64,000 bases of DNA from an uncultured Lentisphaerota bacterium (GTDB lineage Bacteria; Verrucomicrobiota; Kiritimatiellia; CAIQIC01), in assembly GCA_903896925.1 (NCBI GenBank), contig CAITZM010000101.1, positions 1-64,000 of the forward strand, in the 5' to 3' direction. How positions within the stretch are numbered: position 1 is the stretch's first letter; the number at the start of each line of letters is the position of its first letter. The translations under genes and the position numbers were made by a program. This document shows positions 5,827-47,735 of the stretch, one piece after another. The notes under the pieces were generated by a model. That model saw only the letters and a program-made list of their open reading frames with translations. It was not told the origin of the DNA and did not search any database.

Positions 5827-6128
5827 CGGCTTGGTAGGAACGCCGCGGCGCGACGTCCGCCAGACAACCCAACAAAAGCATTTCTTGGGCGGAAGTGTGT
5901 GTCCGGCTGGGGAGCGGACGGCGCGGCGCGCCGTCCCTACCCAAATTTCCCAAGCCTTGTCCCAAGGCACCGGAATCGCCGATCCCGGCAACAATCAAAC
6001 AACGTGCCAGCCTGCTGTAGCCGGGGTCTGCGACCCCGGCGGCAGAGGCTTTTGGCTTGTCCGCGGCGGGGCGCGGCGATAGGTTGCGCGCGCTGCCCGG
6101 TGTGCGGCAGCGGCGAAAGGAATTCGAT
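5827..6128. other. gene-free spacer with three palindromes
   Basis: No gene is supported here. It holds an imperfect palindrome at 5838-5859, a perfect 21-bp palindrome at 5916-5936 followed by CTAC (the same sequence recurs inverted at 8938-8958), and a hairpin at 6020-6040 with arms GCCGGGGTC/GACCCCGGC, preceded by GTA. The ribosome binding site AAGGA for the next gene lies at the right end. Confidence 0.7.
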
Positions 6129-8804
6129 ATGCGTTTGCTCAAGCTTCTGTTCACGGCGGGCCTGATGCTGGCGGCTGCTTCCACGGGACGGGCGGCCACC
6201 CTCTACCTCGAGGCCGAGCGGTTCGACGACGTGGGCGGCTGGACCATCGACGCGCAGTTCCGCCTGTTGATGGGCTCGACCTACCTGCTCGCCGCGGGGA
6301 CCGGCGTGCCGGTCGCCGACGCGACGACCAAGGTCGCGATCCCGGAGACGGGCGAGTATTACCTCTGGGTCCGCTGCAAGGACTGGGACAAGACCTCGCC
6401 GGGCACCTTCCAGGTGCTGATCAACGACAAGCCGGACGCGACGACGTTCGGCGAGCAGAGGCAGGGCTGGCGCTGGGTCAAGGGCGGGGCGTTCGCCCTG
6501 TCGCAAGGCCCGGCGACGATCAAGCTGCACGACCTGACGGGTTACTACGGACGCTGCGATGCGCTGCTCCTTTCCACCGACAAGGACCTCACGCCTCCGG
6601 ACAGCGTCGAGGGCACCGCGGCCCTGAGGGAGAGCCTCCTCGGCAAGCAGACACCGGAGCCGCTGGCGTTTGACTTCGTGGTTGTCGGCGCCGGCTACGG
6701 CGGCATCGGGGCGGCGGTCCAGGCGGCGCGGCTCGGCCTGAAGACGGCGCTGCTCCAGAACCGGCCGTGCCTCGGCGGCAACGCGAGCCGGGAGATCAAC
6801 GTCGGTCCGGGTGGCGCGTGCCCGCACACCAGCCGCTTCCGCGAAACCGGCATCTGCGAGGAGATCGCCGAGGGCCGCTTCCGCACCGGCTCGGATGACT
6901 GGAGCGACGCGATCGACCTGATGATCAAGGGTACGCCGAACCTGACGGTCTACCTGAACACCGAGGGCACGCGCGCGGTGATGGACGGGACGAACCACAT
7001 CGCCGCGGTCGAGGCCGAGCAGGTCGTCACGGGCAAACGGTATCTCTTCAGCGCACCGCTGTTCGCCGACTGCACGGGCGACGGCCACCTCGCCTTCACG
7101 GCGGGCGCGGCCTTCCGCGTCGGGCAGGAGGCGCGCAGCGAGTTCGACGAGAGCCTCGCACCGGAGAAGGCGAACAAGAACACGATGGGCACCTCGATCA
7201 TCCACCACTCGGAATGGATGGAAACGCCACAGCCCTACGTGCCGCCGGCGTTCGCGCACAAGTTCAGCGCGGAGGATTTCACGACGCGCAAGCTGAACAT
7301 GGTGCAGGGCACGTGGTGGATCGAGTACGGCGGCATGGTCGACACGATCCAGGACGCCGAGGAAATCCGCGACGAGCTGCTGCGGGTGATCTACGGCGCG
7401 TTCGACTGGGCGAAGAACTACGACCCCGTGAACCGCGAGAAGAACGCAAACTACAAGCTGTCGCCGGTGCCCACCGTCGGCGGCAAGCGCGAGTCGCGGC
7501 GGTTTTTCGGCGACTACGTGCTCAAACAGCAGGACCTGCAGGCGGCGCCGCTGTTCCCCGACCGCGTGGCGTTCGGCGGCTGGCCGATCGACCTGCACCC
7601 CTCGCCGGGCATCTACGGCAAGGACGTGCCGCCCGCCATCTTCACCCATTTGAAACAGGTCTATTCCCTCCCCTACCGCTGCCTCTACACCCGCGACGTG
7701 GACAACCTGTTCCTCGCCGGCCGGCACATCAGCCTGACGCATGTCGCGCTCGGCTCGCCGCGCCTGATCCAGACCATCGGCGCGGAAGGCCAGGCCGTCG
7801 GCGCCGCCGCGTGCCTCTGCAAGAAGTACGGCGTGCTGCCGCGCGGCGTGAACCCGGCGCACATCACCGAACTGCAGCAGCTTCTGCTCAAGTGGGACTG
7901 CTACATCCCGGAAGTCGGCAACGCGGATGCCGGCGACCTCTGCCGCGGCGCGAAGATCACCGCCTCCAGCGCGCTGCCCGACGGCTCGCTCGGCTTCTAC
8001 GGCGCCGACCCCAAGCTCGGCAAAGAGGTCGACCTGAAGATCGCGCGGGCGCAGCCGGTCGGCACCTCCAAGAGCGACCTCAAGTCGCTCGCCCTGCACC
8101 TGCGCGCCGACGGCGAGGAACCGGTCGTGGCGCAGTTGAGCGTGCTGGAGGATGGACAGCAGACGCCGGTGGTGGTCAGCGCCAAGGTCAAACCCGGCGC
8201 GACCGCCCGGTGGGTGGACTTCAAGCTGCCCGCGCCGCTCAAGCCGGGGGTCAAATACCTCGCCTGGCTGCCGGCGACGCCGCACCTGTTCTGGCAGCTC
8301 TATGAGCACGCCAACGGCGAGCGCCTGTACGGCAAGGTGGGCGCGTGGACGACCGCCGGCGGCGCCTATGCGTTGCGGCCGCTGGCGACGCCGCGCAAGC
8401 TCGGCAAGACCGCGCCGGAGTGCGCGGTGGATGGCGTGGCCTGGCCGCTCGGCGACGAGTGCCACCAGTGGCGCAGCGATCCCGCGAAAGGTTTGCCGCA
8501 GTGGCTCGAGATCGATTTCGGCAAGCCGCAGAAGCTCAACACCGTCTACCTGACGTTCGACTCGAACATCTTCGGCCGGTTCCCGACCACCCGCGCCGGC
8601 GCCGAGGCGACCGCCCAGAAGTACCGGCTGCTCTACAACACCGACGGCCTGTGGCGCGCCGCGTTCACGGAGGAGGGCAACTGGCGCCGCTTCCGGCGGC
8701 ACAGCTTCGACGAGATCACCACCGACAAGATCCGCCTCGAGATCCAGAAGGCCGAGAACAGCGAAGAGGCCCGCCTCTACCAAATCCGTGCCTACCACGA
8801 ATGA
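6129..8804 (+). CDS. exported FAD-dependent oxidoreductase with lectin-like ends
   Basis: The 891-residue product opens with a Sec signal (MRLLKLLFTAGLMLAAAST). Residues about 25-170 form a beta-rich domain with YYLWVRCKDW, resembling a carbohydrate-binding module. A dinucleotide-binding fold starts near 185 (VVGAGYGGIGAAVQAARLG) and continues with LGGNASREINVG, characteristic of the FAD_oxidored group (PF12831). The final 150 residues (QWLEIDFGKPQKLNTVYLTF) look like an F5/8-type discoidin domain. It would be a secreted or periplasmic flavoenzyme bound to glycans. The start at 6129 has AAGGA upstream; the frame extends to 6057 but without a signal peptide. It lies 300 bases after the sugar operon, so it may have its own promoter. 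Substrate unknown. Confidence 0.88.
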   Translation: MRLLKLLFTAGLMLAAASTGRAATLYLEAERFDDVGGWTIDAQFRLLMGSTYLLAAGTGVPVADATTKVAIPETGEYYLWVRCKDWDKTSPGTFQVLINDKPDATTFGEQRQGWRWVKGGAFALSQGPATIKLHDLTGYYGRCDALLLSTDKDLTPPDSVEGTAALRESLLGKQTPEPLAFDFVVVGAGYGGIGAAVQAARLGLKTALLQNRPCLGGNASREINVGPGGACPHTSRFRETGICEEIAEGRFRTGSDDWSDAIDLMIKGTPNLTVYLNTEGTRAVMDGTNHIAAVEAEQVVTGKRYLFSAPLFADCTGDGHLAFTAGAAFRVGQEARSEFDESLAPEKANKNTMGTSIIHHSEWMETPQPYVPPAFAHKFSAEDFTTRKLNMVQGTWWIEYGGMVDTIQDAEEIRDELLRVIYGAFDWAKNYDPVNREKNANYKLSPVPTVGGKRESRRFFGDYVLKQQDLQAAPLFPDRVAFGGWPIDLHPSPGIYGKDVPPAIFTHLKQVYSLPYRCLYTRDVDNLFLAGRHISLTHVALGSPRLIQTIGAEGQAVGAAACLCKKYGVLPRGVNPAHITELQQLLLKWDCYIPEVGNADAGDLCRGAKITASSALPDGSLGFYGADPKLGKEVDLKIARAQPVGTSKSDLKSLALHLRADGEEPVVAQLSVLEDGQQTPVVVSAKVKPGATARWVDFKLPAPLKPGVKYLAWLPATPHLFWQLYEHANGERLYGKVGAWTTAGGAYALRPLATPRKLGKTAPECAVDGVAWPLGDECHQWRSDPAKGLPQWLEIDFGKPQKLNTVYLTFDSNIFGRFPTTRAGAEATAQKYRLLYNTDGLWRAAFTEEGNWRRFRRHSFDEITTDKIRLEIQKAENSEEARLYQIRAYHE

Positions 8805-9580: not shown

Positions 9581-11131
9581 TCAGAGCCCGAGCTTGATAA
9601 ACCACAGCAGGCGCAGGTTGGCGTTGGTGCCTTCGCGCTCGTAGCCGACAAGACCCTTGAGCAGGTTCCAAGAGCTGGTGCCGGCCGCCTTGTCGTCGTG
9701 GCCCCATTCGACGAGCGGGAAGAGCGAGAAGCGGCTGGCTTCGTCGCCGCGGTTCTGGCGGCGGACGAGGCCCCAGAGCAGCTCGTCGCTGCTGTTCTCG
9801 CCGGCGCGGGTGTGCTGGTAGAGCGTCCAGATCGGGGCAAATTCGCGCTCGATCATCGCGCTGTGGCGCATCGGCCAGAGCTTGAGCGCGCGGAAACGCG
9901 ACTGCGCATCGATGCGCTCATAGTCGCACAGCGGCCAGAAATGCCAGTAGCGTACGACGCAGTTGGTCGCGGGCGGCGGCGGCGGGGCGAGGACCTGTTG
10001 CGGCTCGCGGGGACGCTCGCCCTCCCGGGGCGGCTTGGCGGCTTTCCACGTGCTCTCGCTGTACCAGACCGGAGCGAAGGTGTAGCGGTAGACCTTGCCG
10101 TCAGGGCGCTCCATGTTCCGCCACCAGCCAAGCGGCCAGGCGTAGAACCCGCTGTGGATGTGGCCGACGGTCTTATAACCCCAGAAGGGGAAGGCGTAAA
10201 ACTTTTCGACGTCGCCGCTGGCCCACTGGATGAACGGCCACGGCGCATAGCCCAGCGTCTGGTGCGCGCTGGTGCCATACTTGAAGAACGGCGGCAGCAG
10301 CATCCAGTCTTCCTGGTTCTCCCGCTTGATGTGGCCGAAGAGCGGAAAGACGAGGTACCCGTAGCCGCTGACACCGGGGCGGTCGTAGCGCGCCCACGAG
10401 ACGATCGGCCAGAGACAGAACTGTTTATCGAAATCACCGCGCCGGATATTCCAGCCGTAGAGCGGCCAGATGCGGAAGCGGTCGTTGCGCTCGTTGTTTT
10501 CACGGCAGAAGATCGGCCACAGCACGTGGTAGCTGTGCTCGCCCTTCTGTACGTTGTGGATGTAGAGCGGCCAGAGGGCGAAAAAGACCTCATCCTGGAA
10601 GGCGAACTGGCGGATGGTGCCACCGAGCGGGAAACAGGCGGCGTAGTTCGTGCCGAAGCTGTCGCGACCCTGGAACCAGAAGGGGAAGCACCACCACTGC
10701 CAGCGCGCCTGGGGATCGGTCTTGTCGAAATCGGTATAGAAGGAGGTCAGCACCCGCACACTGTGGCTGTTCTCCAGATCCCACGAAAACATCAGCGGCC
10801 AGAGCGCCTCGCGGGAGGCATGCTCATCCTTCTCATCACCGCCGCTGGCGAACGGGCGCACGGCCCAGCAGCTCAGGCCGTTGGTATCGTTCGCGCGCTC
10901 ATAGACCGGGCCGAGCGCCTTCAGATGCATGCCGCCCGCGGGATCCTGCAGCCGGCTGGCGATGGGGCCCCAGTCGAACTCCCGCGCGCTGCCCGGCGCG
11001 CCGGGCGAAGCGCAGCCGGCGAGCAGCAGCGCCGCGGCGGCGAGACCGGCTCCGCACCACACGGTGCGCCCCAGGCGGCGGAGCCGTTCAGCCACGGGAC
11101 GTCTTGTCGGGACAATGACGGGAAGGTTCAT
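9581..11131 (-). CDS. lipoprotein with about 20 aromatic-Pro (WPL-type) repeats
   Basis: A 516-residue lipoprotein: the N-terminus carries a hydrophobic stretch ending in the lipobox LLAGC (Cys40). The rest is a chain of short repeats with a core of the form [hydrophobic]-[W/F]-P-[L/I/F/V]-aromatic, for example ALWPLMF, CFPFWF, ALWPLY, VLWPIF, IWPLYGW, LWPIVSW, VFPLFGH, APWPFIQW, AFPFWGY, AWPLGWW, FWPLCDY, LWPMRHS, LFPLVEW, ending LLWFIKLGL. Spacing is roughly 18-28 residues. The pattern suggests a closed beta structure such as a propeller or barrel at the outer membrane. I do not recognise a named family and assign no function. It is on the minus strand downstream of glmM but 98 bases away. 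Confidence 0.8.
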   Translation of the reverse strand: MNLPVIVPTRRPVAERLRRLGRTVWCGAGLAAAALLLAGCASPGAPGSAREFDWGPIASRLQDPAGGMHLKALGPVYERANDTNGLSCWAVRPFASGGDEKDEHASREALWPLMFSWDLENSHSVRVLTSFYTDFDKTDPQARWQWWCFPFWFQGRDSFGTNYAACFPLGGTIRQFAFQDEVFFALWPLYIHNVQKGEHSYHVLWPIFCRENNERNDRFRIWPLYGWNIRRGDFDKQFCLWPIVSWARYDRPGVSGYGYLVFPLFGHIKRENQEDWMLLPPFFKYGTSAHQTLGYAPWPFIQWASGDVEKFYAFPFWGYKTVGHIHSGFYAWPLGWWRNMERPDGKVYRYTFAPVWYSESTWKAAKPPREGERPREPQQVLAPPPPPATNCVVRYWHFWPLCDYERIDAQSRFRALKLWPMRHSAMIEREFAPIWTLYQHTRAGENSSDELLWGLVRRQNRGDEASRFSLFPLVEWGHDDKAAGTSSWNLLKGLVGYEREGTNANLRLLWFIKLGL

Positions 11132-11228: not shown

Positions 11229-12587
11229 TCAAGCGAGACACTGCCTCACCGTTTCCGCAAGGCTCTGGCACAGGCGGTTGGTCACTTCCTCGCTCGGGCC
11301 CTCGACCATCACGCGGCACATCGACTGGGTGCCGGAATATCGGACCAGGACGCGGCCGGCGTCGCCCAGCTCGGCCTCGGCGGCGCTGATCGCCGCCTGC
11401 AGGGCCGGCACGCTCTCGATGGGCGGCTTCTGCTTGACCGTGATGTTGACCAGCTTCTGCGGTGCAAAATGCATGACCTGCGCCAGCTCCGAGAGCGGCC
11501 GCTGGGTGCTGCACATCGCCGCCAGCAGCTGCAGCGCGGAGATGATGCCGTCGCCGGTGGTGTGGTGATCGTGGAAAATCATGTGCCCGGACGCCTCGCC
11601 GCCGAGCACGGCGCCGCGCTCCTTCATCATCTCCAGCACGTAGCGGTCGCCGACGGGCGCTATGCCCACCTCGATGCCGAGCTGCTTCATCGCGGCGTGG
11701 AAGCCGAAGTTGCTCATCACGGTGGCGATGACGAGGTTGTTCTTCAGCTGCCCGCGGTCCTTGTAGATCTTCGCGCAGATCGCCATGATGTGGTCGCCGG
11801 TCAGCTCCTCGCCCTTCTCATCGATGGCGATCAGGCGGTCGCCGTCGCCGTCGAAGGCGAGGCCGAGCTGCGCCCGCTCCGCCACCACGCGCGCCCGCAG
11901 GTCCGCGGTGTGCTGCGAGCCGCAGTTGTCGTTGATGTTCCGGCCGTCGGGCTTGTCGTGGATCGTGACCACGTCGGCGCCGAGCTCGGAGAAGATGATC
12001 GGCGCGACCTTGTAGGTGGCCCCGTTGGCGCAGTCGAGGACGATCTTCATGCCCTCGAACGAGAGGTCGTCCGGGAACGAGTTCTTGCAGAAGACGATGT
12101 ACCGGCCGCGCGCGTCATCGATGCGCATCGCGCGCCCGATGGCGTCGGCCGTCGGCCGGATGTCGTTGATGTGGCCGGAGGTGATCAGCTGCTCGATCTC
12201 GTCCTCGTCGGCGTCGGGCAGCTTGTAGCCCGTCCGCGAGAAGATCTTGATGCCGTTGTCCTGATAGGGGTTGTGGGAGGCGCTGATCACCAGGCCCGCG
12301 TCGGCGCGCATGCTGTGGGTGATGAAGGCGATGCCCGGCGTCGGCATCGGGCCGACGAGGAAGACGTTGACGCCCATCGAGCAGATGCCCGCGGTCAGCG
12401 CGTTCTCGATCATGTACCCGCTCAGGCGTGTATCCTTGCCGATCACGATGCGGTGCTTGTACCCGCGCCGGTCGTGCCGCTTGCAGACGTAGGCCGTCGC
12501 GCGGCCGATCTGCAGGGCCATCTCCGCGGTCATCGGGTCGATGTTCGCCACGCCGCGCACCCCGTCGGTTCCAAATAAACGTGCCAT
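11229..12587 (-). CDS. glmM: phosphoglucosamine mutase
   Basis: A 452-residue alpha-D-phosphohexomutase that converts glucosamine-6-phosphate to glucosamine-1-phosphate for UDP-GlcNAc synthesis in the cytoplasm. The catalytic phosphoserine loop ISASHNPYQDNGIK places the Ser at residue 104; the metal loop is FDGDGDR, the sugar-binding loop is GGEASGH, and the phosphate-binding loop near the C-terminus is RYSGTQSM, a slight variant of the usual R-SGTE. The N-terminus MARLFGTDGVRG is the classic GlmM start. The ATG at 12587 has AGGGGAA upstream; a much longer open frame runs upstream but overlaps the neighbouring gene. It starts 13 bases after the stop of the GlmU-like gene, so the two form an operon for amino-sugar nucleotide synthesis. 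Confidence 0.96.
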   Translation of the reverse strand: MARLFGTDGVRGVANIDPMTAEMALQIGRATAYVCKRHDRRGYKHRIVIGKDTRLSGYMIENALTAGICSMGVNVFLVGPMPTPGIAFITHSMRADAGLVISASHNPYQDNGIKIFSRTGYKLPDADEDEIEQLITSGHINDIRPTADAIGRAMRIDDARGRYIVFCKNSFPDDLSFEGMKIVLDCANGATYKVAPIIFSELGADVVTIHDKPDGRNINDNCGSQHTADLRARVVAERAQLGLAFDGDGDRLIAIDEKGEELTGDHIMAICAKIYKDRGQLKNNLVIATVMSNFGFHAAMKQLGIEVGIAPVGDRYVLEMMKERGAVLGGEASGHMIFHDHHTTGDGIISALQLLAAMCSTQRPLSELAQVMHFAPQKLVNITVKQKPPIESVPALQAAISAAEAELGDAGRVLVRYSGTQSMCRVMVEGPSEEVTNRLCQSLAETVRQCLA

Positions 12588-12600
12588 GTTGTTCCCCTGT

Positions 12601-13812
12601 TCAGCAGTTGCCCAACGCCGCCGTATGTTCGACAATCTTCTGCAGCCAAGCCGTGCCCTCGCGCCGCGTCTCCGCAGGCAGCGCGCGGACCGCGTCCACA
12701 AAACTGCCGCCGGCGTTGCGCAGCAGCGCGCCCGCCACCCGGCCCCGCTCCTCCGCGCCGAGCTCGTCCGCGGGCGGCGTCTGGAGCGCGGCCGCGAGCG
12801 CCGGCCACTGCCGCGCCAGCTGCTCCTGCCCGGCGACCCACGGCGCCGCGCCGTGGCCCTGCTGCCGGGCGAGCTCAAGCGAGCGCGGCATCCGCGCCGC
12901 CAGCTCGCCAAGCCGCTTGACGCGCTCCTCGCGGCACTCGCGCAGGCGCAGCAGCGCGCCCTCGACGCAGGCCAGCGACCACGTGTCGCGGTTCATGAAC
13001 GGCAGGCGCGCGTGGCGATACCACTGCTCCAGCGCGCGCAGGTTGCCGATATAGAGCAAATTGTTCCGCAGCAGGCGCGCGACGCTTTTATAGGCGCCGC
13101 ACTGGAAGGGGCCGGAGCGGAGCGCCGGCTTGGCATCCGGCGCGAGCAGCTGCCCTTCGGCCGGCGCATCGCCGCGCCAGACCAGGCCCGCCGGGACCAC
13201 GCAGCCGAAGCCGATGCGGCTCGGCCCGACCAGCCCGCCCTGCCCGCCCAGGAAGATCGCCGGCTGGTCCAGCAACACGCCGCGCGGCACGTCGCCCAGC
13301 AGCGAGGCGGTCGCCTTGTCCTGGTGCGGCGTGTAGTTGAAGTGGATGTAGGAGGAGCCGACCTCGCTGTGGTTCTTGCGGTCGCTGCCGCCCGCCATCA
13401 GCACGTCGCAGAAATTGATCAGGCTGCCGAGCGTGACGTACGGCAGGAGGATGGTCTGCTTGAGGCCCACCGTGTGTGCGCCATTGGCCTCCTCCTCGAG
13501 CAGCGTGCCCGGCCGGATGTGCGCGCCGCTGCCGACGTTCGCGCCGTCGAGGAACGTCGCGCCCTCGGCGTAGCCGCCCTTGAGCGCGACGGAGCGGCCG
13601 AGCTGGCAGTTCACGACCGTCATCGGCGCCTCGGCGCCCAGCACGCAGCCCGGCCCGATGCTCGTGGCCGCGCCGGCGAGCTTGCAGCCCGCGTGCAGCA
13701 CGACGCCCGGCGCGAGCCGTTCCGCCCGCACCTCGGGCGCGATCTCGACGGCCTCGGGGCGGTGGATCACCACGCCCCGCGCCACCAAAGCCTGAACCTG
13801 TCGTGTGTACAT
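12601..13812 (-). CDS. GlmU-like left-handed beta-helix protein without nucleotidyltransferase domain
   Basis: The 403-residue protein has hexapeptide-like turns through about residues 20-230 (IAPEVRAERLAPGVVLHAGCKL, LDGANVGSGAHIRPGTLL, VTLGSLINFCDVLMAG) and a segment SEVGSSYIHFNYTPHQDKA recalling the GlmU acetyltransferase active-site coil with its KN-H and N-Y residues. A helical C-terminal part follows (230-403). No Rossmann-type uridylyltransferase domain is present. The start at 13812 has ACGGAG upstream; a TTG at 13833 is an alternative. The operon with glmM suggests a role in acetylating or activating an amino sugar phosphate, but that is inference. Proteins of this type are often named UDP-GlcNAc pyrophosphorylase-like. 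Confidence 0.78.
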   Translation of the reverse strand: MYTRQVQALVARGVVIHRPEAVEIAPEVRAERLAPGVVLHAGCKLAGAATSIGPGCVLGAEAPMTVVNCQLGRSVALKGGYAEGATFLDGANVGSGAHIRPGTLLEEEANGAHTVGLKQTILLPYVTLGSLINFCDVLMAGGSDRKNHSEVGSSYIHFNYTPHQDKATASLLGDVPRGVLLDQPAIFLGGQGGLVGPSRIGFGCVVPAGLVWRGDAPAEGQLLAPDAKPALRSGPFQCGAYKSVARLLRNNLLYIGNLRALEQWYRHARLPFMNRDTWSLACVEGALLRLRECREERVKRLGELAARMPRSLELARQQGHGAAPWVAGQEQLARQWPALAAALQTPPADELGAEERGRVAGALLRNAGGSFVDAVRALPAETRREGTAWLQKIVEHTAALGNC

Positions 13813-13940
13813 GGCTGCTCCGTTCCGCAGCAATGGTGACAGACCGCGTAAAAAAACTCACGCCAGAAATGCAGCCCGCGCGGAACAAACCTGCGTTGCC
13901 AACCATCCGAATTTCTTATTCCGACAAATTCTCAAGCAAA

Positions 13941-42563: not shown

Positions 42564-42953
42564 GTTACCTGCTCCTATGTTGCACGAAGTTGCTGCTCAC
42601 TTAGCACGACCGCGTGTCGCCTGCAAAGCGTATTTTCAGCGTAATTTCAGCGCCCATTCCCGGAGTACACAGGCTTTGGACTGTTTGCCAGCTCCATACC
42701 CACCCATTCTTTCGACAGAATCATTAAGGGCAGAATCATTCTGAGCAATGAAAGAACAGCCGGTCGATTATGGCGATCAGGCAACTTTTTTCGCCTCGAA
42801 CCGGACCACTCAGGAAACGCAACCATGATTCTGCCGTTAATGATGCTGTCGTGCTTGCAGCACCGGATACAACCCAATGTGCCCCGGCCAATTCCAGCAA
42901 GCCTGGTAGTGAAGAGGGCACAGACCAAACGGTCAGCCCACCCGCACCCCGAC
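42564..42953. other. spacer containing element copy F
   Basis: No gene. It holds the palindromic element at 42714-42851; the remaining DNA shows nothing clear. Confidence 0.65.
42714..42851. repeat. palindromic ATGATTCTG element (copy F)
   Basis: GACAGAATCATT plus GCAGAATCATT on the left face ATGATTCTGCC and AATGATGCTGTCG on the right (last unit has one mismatch). The core is longer than in the other copies and different in sequence. Confidence 0.8.
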
Positions 42954-45902
42954 TCATGGCTCCGGCGCAATCACGACACTGAATTCCTGGAAGGCCGTAT
43001 TTTCGACCGGTTGCTCGTTGGCCGGATGCACGACCCACACGAGCCAGCGATATTTCCCGAGCGGCCCCTGCACGCTGGTGGCGGTGAAGCGCCCGGTCTG
43101 CGCCGCGCTATCCACCTCGGCGATGAACGTGAACGCCTTGGCATCCTCCACATCCCAGCCGGGATCGGTGGCGCTCGCGCTGCCATAGAGCTCAAAGATC
43201 TGCCGGCCGCGATGCGCGCCCATCCGGTAGGAGTAGGTGTTGACCTGCGCCAGGTTCTGCGACCCGGCGAGATCCAGTTTATACATGCCTTCTGTCCGGC
43301 CGTTCGGCACGACCGGTCCGTAATTCTTCGCCAGCTGGCCATCGAGCAACGTCGCGAGCGGTTCGTTCGCCGTCTGCACGTTGGCCGTCACCTTCCACGC
43401 CGCAGGCGCGGCGTGAGGTGCCAGCGCGAACTGCGCATCGTCATGCGCTTCGAGAACCACTTTGACGCCCTTGAACGGCACGCGCATCGCGGGTGCCGCG
43501 TCGCCCTTGAGCTCGAGGGTGGCCGCGCCCTGGTCGCGCCAGACTCCGAGCTTCGCGCCGTTCCCGGCCTTGGCGCGCAGCAGCGCACCGACGTCCTCGG
43601 TGGGTTTACCGTTGCACTTCAGAATGACATCGCCTTCCCTCAGGCCCGAGCGCGCGGCGCTGCTGCCCGCGGGCACCGTGATCAACCGCACGCCGACTTC
43701 GCCGGGCAGACCGGCGGCGGAGATTTCGCCGAGGCCGATGATGTTTTTGATTTTCGCACCGAGCCATTCGCGGACCTTGGCGTCGCGTTTGGAAACCTCC
43801 TCTTTCCCGATCACGAACGACGGCGTACGCGCCAGCTTTTTCAGCTCCGGTTTCTGCACGCCGAACCGGTCCATCGGAAAATTCTGGAAGCCCAGCGCGA
43901 GCGCGGGCGAGCCCGCCTTCACGCGGTAGTCGCCGTGCGCCGGATCCTCGAAGAGCGCGTCGCCGACAAGCGAGTGCTCGTCGCGCCCGCTCTGCTTTTG
44001 CAGGGCTGTCGCCGGTGTCGCTGCACCCTGCCCCGCCACGTGCCACAGGTTGGAGTCCATCGCGCGCCCCCACGGCTGGTTCACGCGGACCGGGCGATAG
44101 GGGCCGCAGACGATGTTGTGCGAGAACTCGTCCTGGCTGTTGCCATACCAGACGTGCGGATGGAACGAATTGTTGACCATGATGTTGTTGACGACGACGC
44201 GGTAGAAGCCCTCGCGGTTCTTGAGGCCACCGTTCAGGCACAGGTTGTTGCTGATGGCGTAATGGGTGGAGCCGTCGTCGAGATCGATGTCCCAGCCGTG
44301 ATCGCAACGCCAGCGGCTGTTGCGGAGCACGTTCGGCTCCACCACGTCGAGCAGCGGCAGGTTCTTGTTTTCGCCGAGCGTGACCGTGCCGAGATCGATA
44401 CCCTGGATACCCCAGAAGCGGTCGCGGCCCCACGAGTTGAAGCTGCCATGGTCGCCGGTTTCCTTGACGGTGTCGAAGATGTCGCAGAACTCGACCAGAT
44501 GGCCGCCCCAACAGCCGTCGCCGATGTTGATGCCGGCGCGCGGCAGGTCGTAGATCGAGCAGTGGCGCACGGTGATGCGCGCGGCCATGTCGATTTCCAC
44601 GCCCGCCGTCTGCTTCTCGACGCGGCCGGTCTCGTGGATCAGGCAATCCTCCACGAGGCCGTCGGTGGGATAGTTGTTCCCCTTCGGGCCGGGCGTCTTG
44701 TCCACCGTCGCGAAGGTGTTGCGCTTCTCGTAGCCCACGAGGCCATCGCGGACGGCCGCCGGGTCGCCCACGAACGAAACGCCGTTGCCGCCGGCCTTCG
44801 CGATATGGCAGCCGCGCACCACCGTGCCGCGGTTGAAGTTATTCACAAAGATCGCATTGCCGCCCACCTGGTCCACGAAACAGTTTTCGACGGCGCAGTT
44901 TTCGGTGCCGTTGAAGAACAGCGCGCCGCCGCGGTAGACCGTCCAGTCGGTGCGCAACATCGGCTCCTTGTTGTCCATGAACGTCCGCGCCGCATGCCGG
45001 AACGTCAGGCCGGAGAACTGCAGCTGCCGCACCGGATTTTTTTCGTCACCGCGCAACTCGATGAGCGTGCGCAGACGGACGCCTTCCAGTTTGGCCTGCG
45101 CAAGATCGAGCCCGGCGGGCGGATAGAAATAGAGCGTGCCGGCCTGCGCGTCGTGGAACCACTCGCCGGGCGCGTCGAGTTCCTCGAAGATGTTTTCTAC
45201 GAACCGGCACTCCTTGTGCGGCGCGGACGGCCGGTTGTTCTGCCAGCCGCCCTCGTATTGCAGCGCGCCTTGCGCGTCCTTGCCGGTGATGCGGTAGTGC
45301 ATGCCGCCCCACATCGCGGAGTGCATGGCGTGGATGAAACCGCCGGTAGGCGCGTGCCACGTCGCGACGCGCGCCGGGCTGATCGCGTCCGCCGCATGGC
45401 CGTTGAAGATGCGCTCGTCGGCATTGAAGTTCGGGTAGCGCGCCATCGGCATCCGCTCGCCGTTGACGAACAGCTGGTCAAAGGAGGAAACCTGAGACTT
45501 GAGAGCCGAAACCTGAAAGGCCGCAGCCGGGAGCTGCGCCCGGAAAATGCCCTTGCGGAAAGGTTCCCACTTCAAGCCCGCGATCTCGAAGCCGCCGCTG
45601 ATGACCGCTTCCTCCCCATCCGCGGCCCGATACGTGACCGCCGCGCCCGGCGCGCCGGAATCGGCGGCGGTGAAGACGAGCGTCCCGGGAAGATAATAGG
45701 TGCCGCCGCGGACGGTCACGGTGAGCGGTTCCTTGGCCCGCTGCGGCAGCGCGCGCACCAGCCGCTGCGCCGCGGCGAGCGAAGCCAGCGGCTTTTCGCG
45801 CGTACCCGGACTGGCGTCGTTGCCGCCCGGCGCGACAAATATTTCCATCGCGCCCACGCTCAGGGCGCTGCACAAGCCCAACAGGATTCCGATGTTTTTC
45901 AT
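42954..45902 (-). CDS. exported beta-helix protein with PDZ domain
   Basis: A 982-residue exported protein with signal peptide (MKNIGILLGLCSALSVGA), then a right-handed parallel beta-helix from about residue 20 (IFVAPGGNDASPGTREKPL, a frequent start of pectate-lyase-like exported proteins) to about 700, with turns such as NCAVENCFVDQVGGNAIFV. A PDZ domain lies near 740-830 (GVRLITVPAGSSAARSGLREGD). A beta-rich C-terminal domain (about 855-982) resembles a discoidin module. Start: GGAG lies nine bases ahead of ATG at 45902. Near residue 130 a dispersed repeat (45484-45520) is read in frame as QVSALKSQVSS. Probably a polysaccharide-binding or -cleaving protein. Confidence 0.87.
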   Translation of the reverse strand: MKNIGILLGLCSALSVGAMEIFVAPGGNDASPGTREKPLASLAAAQRLVRALPQRAKEPLTVTVRGGTYYLPGTLVFTAADSGAPGAAVTYRAADGEEAVISGGFEIAGLKWEPFRKGIFRAQLPAAAFQVSALKSQVSSFDQLFVNGERMPMARYPNFNADERIFNGHAADAISPARVATWHAPTGGFIHAMHSAMWGGMHYRITGKDAQGALQYEGGWQNNRPSAPHKECRFVENIFEELDAPGEWFHDAQAGTLYFYPPAGLDLAQAKLEGVRLRTLIELRGDEKNPVRQLQFSGLTFRHAARTFMDNKEPMLRTDWTVYRGGALFFNGTENCAVENCFVDQVGGNAIFVNNFNRGTVVRGCHIAKAGGNGVSFVGDPAAVRDGLVGYEKRNTFATVDKTPGPKGNNYPTDGLVEDCLIHETGRVEKQTAGVEIDMAARITVRHCSIYDLPRAGINIGDGCWGGHLVEFCDIFDTVKETGDHGSFNSWGRDRFWGIQGIDLGTVTLGENKNLPLLDVVEPNVLRNSRWRCDHGWDIDLDDGSTHYAISNNLCLNGGLKNREGFYRVVVNNIMVNNSFHPHVWYGNSQDEFSHNIVCGPYRPVRVNQPWGRAMDSNLWHVAGQGAATPATALQKQSGRDEHSLVGDALFEDPAHGDYRVKAGSPALALGFQNFPMDRFGVQKPELKKLARTPSFVIGKEEVSKRDAKVREWLGAKIKNIIGLGEISAAGLPGEVGVRLITVPAGSSAARSGLREGDVILKCNGKPTEDVGALLRAKAGNGAKLGVWRDQGAATLELKGDAAPAMRVPFKGVKVVLEAHDDAQFALAPHAAPAAWKVTANVQTANEPLATLLDGQLAKNYGPVVPNGRTEGMYKLDLAGSQNLAQVNTYSYRMGAHRGRQIFELYGSASATDPGWDVEDAKAFTFIAEVDSAAQTGRFTATSVQGPLGKYRWLVWVVHPANEQPVENTAFQEFSVVIAPEP
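45484..45520. repeat. dispersed repeat inside a coding region
   Basis: GAAACCTGAGACTTGAGAG followed by CCGAAACCTGAAAG. It matches the repeat at the 3' end of thiG, and here lies in frame within the beta-helix gene. Confidence 0.75.
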
Positions 45903-46052
45903 GGCGTCTCCGCAAAAGTCAGCCGGTGCCGTCCGGACCAACCGCAGCGCACCATAGGAAGGCCGGGCAAAACGGTAAAGGCAAAACTTGCAAAACGCTT
46001 CAGCCCGCGCTGCGTGGCGCGGGCTGAAGGTGCGGAAGATGGCGCGTGCGGC

Positions 46053-47735
46053 TCAGTTGCCGCGCGCCATGTTGCCCCAGCGGCCGTTGGCGCTGCGATC
46101 CGTGCTGCCGGGTTGGTTGTTGCCGGCGGGCACCACCTGGCGCAGCTGTTGCGGCGCGGCGGGCGCGGCGCGGACGGCGGCAGGTTGCGGGACCGGCTGC
46201 GCCGCGGGCGCCGCATGCATTACGCGCGGCGCGGCCACCGGCGCGCTCGGACGCGCAAGCGCTTGCTGCGCCTGCATGACCCGGTTATCCGGGCGCGCAT
46301 ATTGCACAGGCGGCATGACGCGCTGCGCCACGGCGGGAGCGGGTTGCCGAGCTACGCTCTCATGCCGTTGCACCGTCTGGGCGACGGGCGCGGCACGGGT
46401 GGAAACAGTGACACGCTGCTCGGGGCGCGCGACGGGCAGATTGTGTTGCACAAAGTTCGGCGCATTTTGATGAGATGCGGCATCGTGGTGCTGCTGCGGA
46501 GTCTGCATCACCGGCGCGACGGGCGCGGCACGGGTGGAAACAGTGACACGCTGCTCAGGGCGCGCGACGGGCACATTGCGTTGCACAAAGTTCGGCGCAT
46601 TTTGATGAGATGCGGCATCGTGGTGCTGCTGCGGGGTCTGCATCACCGGCGCGACGGGCGCGCTGACAGGCCGGGGCACGGCGCGCGGTTCGGGACGCGC
46701 CACAGGCACGCTGCGCTGCACCACCGGCTGCGGCAGGCTGGCACGATTGAACGTGCCATGATTGTCGCCGGTGCGCTGATTGTTGGCACTGCTCTCATGG
46801 CGCACGCTCACCGGTGTGGCCACGTGCTCCACAGGACGCGTTACGCTCGTGTTGTGCTGGGAAGTTTCACGCTGGGTGGGCCCGAACACCGCCTGGGTCT
46901 TGGGCACCACGACCTGATGCGCCTGGTTGTGCGGCCGGTCGCTGACAGCCGTCGGCCGCGCTTGCTGAACGGCCGGAGCCCGGGTGCCGGCCGGGTACTG
47001 ATGCGGCGCCGCTGGCGCGGGATGCCATGCGCGGATCACTTCGACCGGGTGCCGATATTGCGGGTGTTGCTCGCGCATGCGCACATTGCAGCGATGCCAG
47101 TCGAAATCATAGCGATGCCAGGAGCCGATCCGCCACCAGAACCCGTAGTTGATCCAGGAACCGCCGAACGGCGCCGGCTGCAGGTAGACGACCTGCGGAT
47201 CGTATTGCGGCACATAGACGACTTCCGGCTCCGCCGGGATAATCGTGATGACATTCTGGTCGCTGATGACGCGCTGCTGGGGGGTGCTCGTCAGGTTTCC
47301 CAGCGTCTGCGCACGGACGCGGAGCCGCTGGACCGCAGCCATCACGTCGGCTGGCTGCGCGCGGAACGCATCGCCCACGGCCGTCGTCCAGACGAGGTTG
47401 TCGGCCATCCACTGGGTCAGTTCAGGATAATGGGCCAGCGTGCGGACGCTGTCGTCCCACGGTTGCGCCTCGAGCTGGTCCACCTCGCCACCGGTGGCGA
47501 GATAACGCGCGGCCAGCACGACATCGGCCGGCGCGGTCGCGGCCGGCAGCATCACGGCGATCAAGGCGTCAGGATAGAGCGCCACGGGCCCGAGCAAGAC
47601 ATCCAGTTCTTCCGCAGGGCGCTGCGCCACTGACTCTTGCGCCACCACGGCCAGGCTCATTCCGGCCCACACCGCCAACACCGCCGCCTTGAACCATCCG
47701 CCCTGCCTTTGCTGTGCTGTCCAGATCGTTTTCAT
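46053..47735 (-). CDS. DUF3300 family exported protein with tandem 45-residue repeats
   Basis: A 560-residue protein with signal peptide (FKAAVLAVWAGMSLAVVA) and a DUF3300 domain of about 200 residues: LDVLLGPVALYPDALIAVMLPAATAP, VVLAARYLATG, WDDSVRTLAHYPELTQWM and PAEPEVVYVPQYDPQVVYLQP. The rest is rich in Pro, Ala, Gln and His. Two nearly perfect 135-bp repeats at 46381-46515 and 46516-46650 encode 45-residue units (VAPVMQTPQQHHDAASHQ and on), and a partial third begins at 46651. The start at 47735 has GGGAG upstream. DUF3300 proteins are periplasmic or membrane-linked, function unknown. Confidence 0.88.
   Translation of the reverse strand: MKTIWTAQQRQGGWFKAAVLAVWAGMSLAVVAQESVAQRPAEELDVLLGPVALYPDALIAVMLPAATAPADVVLAARYLATGGEVDQLEAQPWDDSVRTLAHYPELTQWMADNLVWTTAVGDAFRAQPADVMAAVQRLRVRAQTLGNLTSTPQQRVISDQNVITIIPAEPEVVYVPQYDPQVVYLQPAPFGGSWINYGFWWRIGSWHRYDFDWHRCNVRMREQHPQYRHPVEVIRAWHPAPAAPHQYPAGTRAPAVQQARPTAVSDRPHNQAHQVVVPKTQAVFGPTQRETSQHNTSVTRPVEHVATPVSVRHESSANNQRTGDNHGTFNRASLPQPVVQRSVPVARPEPRAVPRPVSAPVAPVMQTPQQHHDAASHQNAPNFVQRNVPVARPEQRVTVSTRAAPVAPVMQTPQQHHDAASHQNAPNFVQHNLPVARPEQRVTVSTRAAPVAQTVQRHESVARQPAPAVAQRVMPPVQYARPDNRVMQAQQALARPSAPVAAPRVMHAAPAAQPVPQPAAVRAAPAAPQQLRQVVPAGNNQPGSTDRSANGRWGNMARGN
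46381..46650. repeat. 135-bp tandem repeat (two full copies) in DUF3300 gene
   Basis: The two copies differ by only a few bases and keep the reading frame. A partial third copy follows. Confidence 0.9.

Follow-up and report, generated by a model that had tools for sequence, protein, structure and literature searches.

A conserved aromatic-proline repeat protein family encoded before mlaEFD: candidate extra-cytoplasmic component of an MCE lipid transporter in Verrucomicrobiota

Organization of the Locus

The window discussed here is a stretch of 64,000 nucleotides from an uncultured Lentisphaerota bacterium of the phylum Verrucomicrobiota (contig CAITZM010000101.1). Its minus strand carries, at positions 9581-11131 with the stop codon included, a gene for a protein of 516 amino acids, present as a single copy in this genome. 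The gene is defined by its open reading frame and translation and by the occurrence of its family in 315 of the 345 class genomes covered by a profile search. The first-pass annotation had placed a reading frame at this position, leaving its strand unstated.

The first 40 residues (11012-11131, minus strand) form a signal region assigned from the sequence, in which a hydrophobic stretch is followed by the lipobox-like LLAGC of residues 36-40, so that the region ends in LAGC with Cys40. Judged by their N-termini, members of the family are predicted to be exported, and lipidation is predicted not to be family-wide. Of the 177 homologues with a readable N-terminus, 153 have a signal-like hydrophobic stretch and 26 have a lipobox, which suggests that export is general in the family and that lipidation is not. 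The original description of the protein as a lipoprotein is therefore apt for the window protein but not for the family as a whole.

Residues 48-516 (9584-10990, minus strand) hold an array of ~23-24 strand-repeat units of ~18-19 residues each, delimited by motif shuffles, a repeat profile and residue couplings, and most units are centred on a hydrophobic belt with Pro. Within the array lies a variable Pro-rich linker (residues ~362-391; 9959-10048, minus strand), which corresponds to a gapped and variable region of the alignment.

The upstream neighbour is glmM (11229-12590, minus strand), a member of the phosphoglucomutase/phosphomannomutase family identified by the Pfam PGM_PMM domains I-IV. 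Its true start is near 12590 according to the domain match, and the open reading frame extends to 12911. The next gene upstream encodes a hexapeptide-repeat-like protein (12601-13833, minus strand) and is given for context only; the window copy has no Pfam match, and its homologue at locus L053 has a weak, sub-cutoff Hexapep match. On the opposite strand, past the end of the repeat gene, lies a gene for an FAD-dependent oxidoreductase with Golvesin_C-like and F5/8 type C domains (6057-8804, plus strand). Elsewhere in the window, the plus strand contains a 1582-residue autotransporter-like reading frame with passenger-associated-transport repeats (PF12951; 33288-38036) and a 1602-residue reading frame with no Pfam match at 0.001 (42825-47633).

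Repeat Pattern and Strand Architecture

Residues 41-516 contain 14 copies of the motif [WF]P[LIFMV], against an average of 1.2 and never more than 6 in 2000 shuffles. The motif is also conserved among homologues, which bears out the aromatic-Pro repeat first perceived in the window protein. Across 33 divergent members from the phylum, 14 alignment columns are invariant, 12 of them Pro. When 18 repeats are averaged over 207 sequences, the residue preceding the Pro (position -1) is Trp in 46% and aromatic in 72% of cases, and positions -4 to +2, Pro aside, are hydrophobic at fractions of 0.64 to 0.93. Because these fractions are 0.93, 0.88, 0.93, and 0.86 at positions -2, -1, +1, and +2, respectively, both faces of the belt are hydrophobic. 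The belt spans seven residues, and its flanks are 49-80% polar with slight alternation.

Residue couplings were obtained with a mean-field method on 169 sequences and with pseudolikelihood on 206 sequences (Neff 178), and the two agree. They place hairpin turns near residues 84, 102, 120, 139, 159, 177, 196, 214, 232, 252, 271, 290, 307, 323, 343, 404, 426, 444, 465, 482, and 502. Turns recur every 16-22 residues, typically every 18-19, which gives ~23-24 units, most with a central Pro and the rest with Gly or another residue at the centre. The regularity is interrupted once, at residues ~355-400, where the variable Pro-rich linker is inserted. The first-pass annotation had counted about twenty repeats, spaced 18-28 residues apart and starting near residue 110. 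The periodic array stands; the coupling-derived turns tighten the spacing apart from the one break, set the count at ~23-24 units, and move the start of the array to near residues 50-75.

Very probably, the chain folds into an extended antiparallel meander in which most of the 23-24 strands have Pro at their midpoint. This reading, drawn from the couplings, reflects the fact that the best antiparallel ladders mostly link neighbouring strands, that the best antiparallel ladder outscores the best parallel one (3.67 vs 2.07), and that the four strongest couplings average 4.97 between adjacent strands vs 3.20 (sd 0.51) between non-adjacent ones. Of the earlier proposal of a closed beta structure at the outer membrane, the repeated beta part gains support from these serial antiparallel hairpins. 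Pairing of the first and last strands (0 and 23) scores 3.5, compared with a mean of 3.2 (sd 0.51) for non-adjacent strands, a signal too weak to claim closure. A second pattern, in which strand i would face strand ~20-i (for example L169-F316 and F149-W336, both with residue numbers summing to 485), is likewise too weak to claim. Structure prediction for the window protein and the homologues at L031 and L032 (whole; residues 139-345) returned unusable models, with pLDDT values of 28.5 and 30.5.

Conserved Pro residues at strand centres are unusual in a membrane barrel. With a belt that is hydrophobic all round, a structure that has lipid or membrane against both its faces is favoured, and Pro at the centre of most strands speaks for pronounced bending. 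As to overall shape, we lean slightly towards a barrel or flattened tube rather than an open lipid groove.

Family Membership and Conservation

The first-pass statement that the protein contains no named domain agrees with database searches: the window protein has no match in Pfam or NCBIfam at E-values up to 10 and no sequence match in the PDB. A 27-row family profile also yielded no PDB sequence match. Membership of the MlaA (PF04333) or MlaC (PF05494) families was rejected, as the window protein matches neither in Pfam at E-values up to 10 and none of the 27 + 33 members does so at E-values up to 1. No relative was found on viral contigs, and a scan of genome contigs gave matches in two congeners only, both labelled 'uncultured Lentisphaerae bacterium'. 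Literature searches of open-licence PMC articles found no description of the repeat protein.

Homologues carrying the repeat are widely conserved in the phylum, conservation being one of the checks proposed in the first-pass annotation. The family occurs in 55 of the 56 genomes searched as relatives, the window's own genome counted, and in 134 of the 143 class genomes with at least 90% completeness and at most 5% contamination. At the level of the phylum it is found in 184 of 387 genomes, or in 173 without 11 weak matches (E worse than 1e-13: G057, G112, G124, G132, G182, G205, G217, G219, G381, G387, and G395), which were scored as family-negative in the comparison with MlaA below. Absences of the repeat family are upper bounds, since the phylum profile search missed the repeat gene of at least one genome (G192). 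The family is real, uncatalogued, and widely conserved, and its likely role becomes visible only beyond the window. It would be a new component of a known kind of system, and its fold is possibly new.

Association with mlaEFD

Three genes trail the repeat gene in most of 20 neighbourhoods from diverse genomes, compared with L031, L032, and the window. At L053, Pfam identifies the downstream genes as MlaE (2.4e-69), an ABC_tran ATPase (7.6e-31), and MlaD (7.2e-15). The usual order, repeat protein-MlaE-MlaF-MlaD, is that of an MCE lipid-transport operon preceded by the repeat gene. The 241 family-bearing loci were de-duplicated by a 60-residue stretch to 207 distinct loci, and genes were counted from six-frame calls with BLAST-based labels rather than from curated annotation. 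In 173 of the 207 loci, the first Mla gene after the repeat gene is MlaE, on the same strand; 26 have no Mla gene downstream despite room for one, and 8 end within 600 bases. All three of MlaE, MlaF, and MlaD are visible in 111 of the 173 loci, the remainder being mostly cut by the fetched length. Among divergent loci (<400 bits), 35 of 55 retain the MlaE order.

The genes upstream vary among loci, with a carbamoyltransferase pair in some of them. In a set of 170 loci, GlmM is upstream in 36 and the hexapeptide-like protein together with GlmM in 24, compared with MlaE downstream in 141. The adjacency to glmM to which the first-pass annotation drew attention is thus present in the window but is a minor link in the family.

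The taxonomic family of the window genome (G000, G001, G002, G003, and G005) keeps glmM, and no mla genes adjoin the repeat gene in the stretches read. In the window genome (G000), MlaE and MlaD are encoded on another contig (C181). This MlaE shares 77% identity with the one next to the repeat gene at L106 and 41% with the MlaE of MlaA operons (L257 and L258), and in a tree it pairs with the L106 MlaE (support 0.82). As judged from sequence, the operon is split in the window's family: the repeat gene has remained next to glmM, and the other contig carries an MlaEFD of the type associated with the repeat gene.

A second, distant MlaE of another type (26% identical) lies near a contig end in the same genome (C130:23880-24518), as does a second MlaD (C70:3462-3707). 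One exception to the usual type of MlaE was noticed at L119 (genome G593), where the MlaE downstream belongs to the paralogous type and is 59% identical to the C130 copy.

Distribution Relative to MlaA and MlaC

The repeat family and MlaA are, in large part, near-complementary across the phylum. Among 387 genomes, 155 have the repeat family only, 134 MlaA only, 18 both, and 80 neither (Fisher 1.3e-27, shared ancestry ignored). The corresponding numbers within the class are 115, 4, 8, and 4 of 131 genomes (p 0.0024, shared ancestry ignored), and those within family f48, counted over its 36 genomes with MlaE listed, are 24, 9, 1, and 2 (p 5e-6, shared ancestry ignored). One of the two f48 genomes scored as having neither is G192, in which a repeat gene is actually present before MlaE. 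As a control for specificity, 20 MlaE loci were inspected in 14 genomes scored as having neither protein, and 19 of them have no upstream family member, G192 being the exception.

MlaE itself is present in 362 of the 387 phylum genomes. Among 126 class genomes with at least 90% completeness, MlaA is found in 14 and MlaC in 13, each of the latter having MlaA as well; the window's genome has no match to MlaA or MlaC. In the 18 genomes with both proteins, the listed matches to MlaA and to the repeat family are on different contigs or, in G294, ~0.7 Mb apart. In G140, for example, MlaA, MlaC, and MlaE are together on contig C24, and the repeat gene is on C18.

Many of the 80 genomes scored with neither protein, from genome families f46, f47, f58, and others, carry MlaE. 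In genome families f44, f50, f56, and f57, MlaA domains lie in reading frames of ~600-880 residues in many genomes, compared with ~250-330 for most other matches, and MlaA may therefore be fused to another domain there.

Proposed Role and Alternative Explanations

In E. coli and other bacteria, MlaE, MlaF, and MlaD form an inner-membrane ABC transporter with a lipid-binding MCE ring, and MlaA is an outer-membrane lipid gate. Since its gene lies directly before the lipid transporter genes in most relatives, the repeat protein is probably the missing outer part of an inter-membrane lipid machine. With a probability of roughly 0.7, we consider it to serve an MCE (MlaEFD-type) lipid transporter as a dedicated component outside the cytoplasm, one that does the job of MlaC and MlaA. 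The protein would be exported by its signal peptide, fold into a single extended antiparallel beta-meander whose ~23-24 short strands carry a hydrophobic, Pro-centred belt, and pass lipid between MlaD and the outer membrane, in one direction or the other, in place of MlaC plus MlaA. Contact with MlaD, a lipid cargo, an outer-membrane or periplasmic site, and transport itself are proposed by analogy with the known roles of MlaEFD and MlaA.

The observations behind this role are the export-like N-terminus, the mlaEFD operon, the near-exclusion with MlaA, and the serial antiparallel hairpins. Counting against it are the 26 of 207 loci without a downstream Mla gene, the window's family included, and the 18 genomes with both proteins and 80 with neither among the 387 of the phylum. 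The operon also makes the envelope location and the lipid contact suggested in the first-pass annotation plausible; nothing points to the glycan contact mentioned with the latter. Because the family is fixed before mlaE across the phylum, and MlaA is found instead in many genomes that lack the family, the repeat protein is a strong candidate for the outer partner, and the question of how lipid passes between MlaD and the outer membrane becomes testable through deletion of a single gene.

A bolder version of this role can be put forward tentatively. Docked on the MlaD ring, the protein may act as a new conduit for lipids at the outer membrane and take the place of both the MlaC shuttle and the MlaA gate. 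Its ~23-24 Pro-centred strands would make up a closed tube or a flattened barrel, hydrophobic on the inside, through which lipids could pass uninterrupted across the envelope of Verrucomicrobiota-type bacteria, and the Pro-centred fold class may recur in other phyla.

AsmA/TamB, LptA, and their kin are beta-groove lipid bridges, and the repeat protein could, though we think it rather unlikely, be a periplasmic bridge of this sort: an open, strongly curved beta-groove, U-shaped through its Pro kinks, serving as a track on which lipids move from MlaD to the outer membrane with no membrane barrel. Uniformly short turns at both edges, mid-strand Pro, a hydrophobic centre with polar flanks, and the undetected closure between first and last strands (3.5 vs 3.2) would all suit such a groove, and 23 strands at 4.8 A per strand would reach ~110 A by arithmetic. 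However, a belt that is hydrophobic on both faces exceeds what a one-sided groove needs, a lipid anchor is missing in most members (lipobox in 26 of 177), and none of the 27 + 33 members has an AsmA-type Pfam match.

Operon linkage alone would look identical if the protein were a regulatory or assembly factor that stabilises or folds the MlaD ring and carries no lipid. This is improbable, as near-complementarity with an outer-membrane lipid component such as MlaA would be unexpected of an accessory factor, and the size and aromatic-rich belt of the protein fit a conduit. Gene order is common to related genomes, and one class dominates the set, so the adjacency to mlaE might in principle be a frozen chromosomal order with no functional meaning. 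We regard this as highly improbable, because other classes, whose members match at E ~1e-40 to 1e-50, keep the order, as do 35 of the 55 loci below 400 bits, and because upstream genes vary while the downstream order holds. Least probable of all is an envelope role in peptidoglycan or glycan metabolism, linked by way of glmM. GlmM does immediately precede the gene in the window and lies upstream of it in 36 of 170 loci, but MlaE is a far more constant neighbour (141 of the same 170), and unrelated genes such as the carbamoyltransferase pair take the upstream place elsewhere.

Comparison with Known Systems

Among catalogued families, NCBIfam NF047486 (LA_1737, function unknown) comes closest; one of the 33 divergent members matches it at 2.9e-6, but the window protein has no match to it at E-values up to 10. 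LA_1737 was rejected as a parent family, as none of 169 genomes scored above its cut-off of 60 bits and the best score, 25.7 bits, came from a different gene. The name LA_1737 presumably refers to Leptospira, and we know of no link between LA_1737 and MCE transport; literature searches on LA_1737 returned unrelated papers only. A second lipobox-bearing protein with WPL-like repeats, not an orthologue of the repeat protein, is encoded in two genomes of the class, at L260 (62-1753) and L261 (G184:C10 and G035:C7). These proteins match LA_1737_Cterm at 1.3e-5 and 8.5e-5, below the cut-off, and score weakly with the repeat-family profile, and their sequences suggest a wider class of proline-centred repeat proteins.

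The AsmA/TamB and LptA proteins share with the repeat protein a proposed principle, namely a hydrophobic beta surface that carries lipid between membranes. They have no sequence match among the 27 + 33 members of the repeat family.

The Mla system of Proteobacteria (MlaA PF04333, MlaC PF05494, and MlaFEDB) has the same MlaE, MlaF, and MlaD core and a co-encoded exported partner. It differs in the partner, as the repeat protein is neither MlaA nor MlaC by sequence, and genomes usually have one or the other.

A study of the trans-envelope MlaEFD of Veillonella parvula includes a survey of 1083 genomes, in the account of which MlaDEF is found in almost all diderm phyla and MlaABC mostly in Proteobacteria (PMC10665443). 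The passages of that study on the MlaD beta-barrel describe it as completely absent in the PVC and FCB groups, and for barrel-less MlaD they leave open how the outer membrane is reached, with 'as yet unidentified proteins' as one possibility (PMC10665443). As far as the V. parvula system is described there, it resembles the one proposed here in MCE transport without MlaA or MlaC and in a beta-rich outer part, whereas its barrel is the C-terminal part of MlaD, with ten strands, and the beta-rich part here would be a separate gene product of 23-24 strands (PMC10665443).
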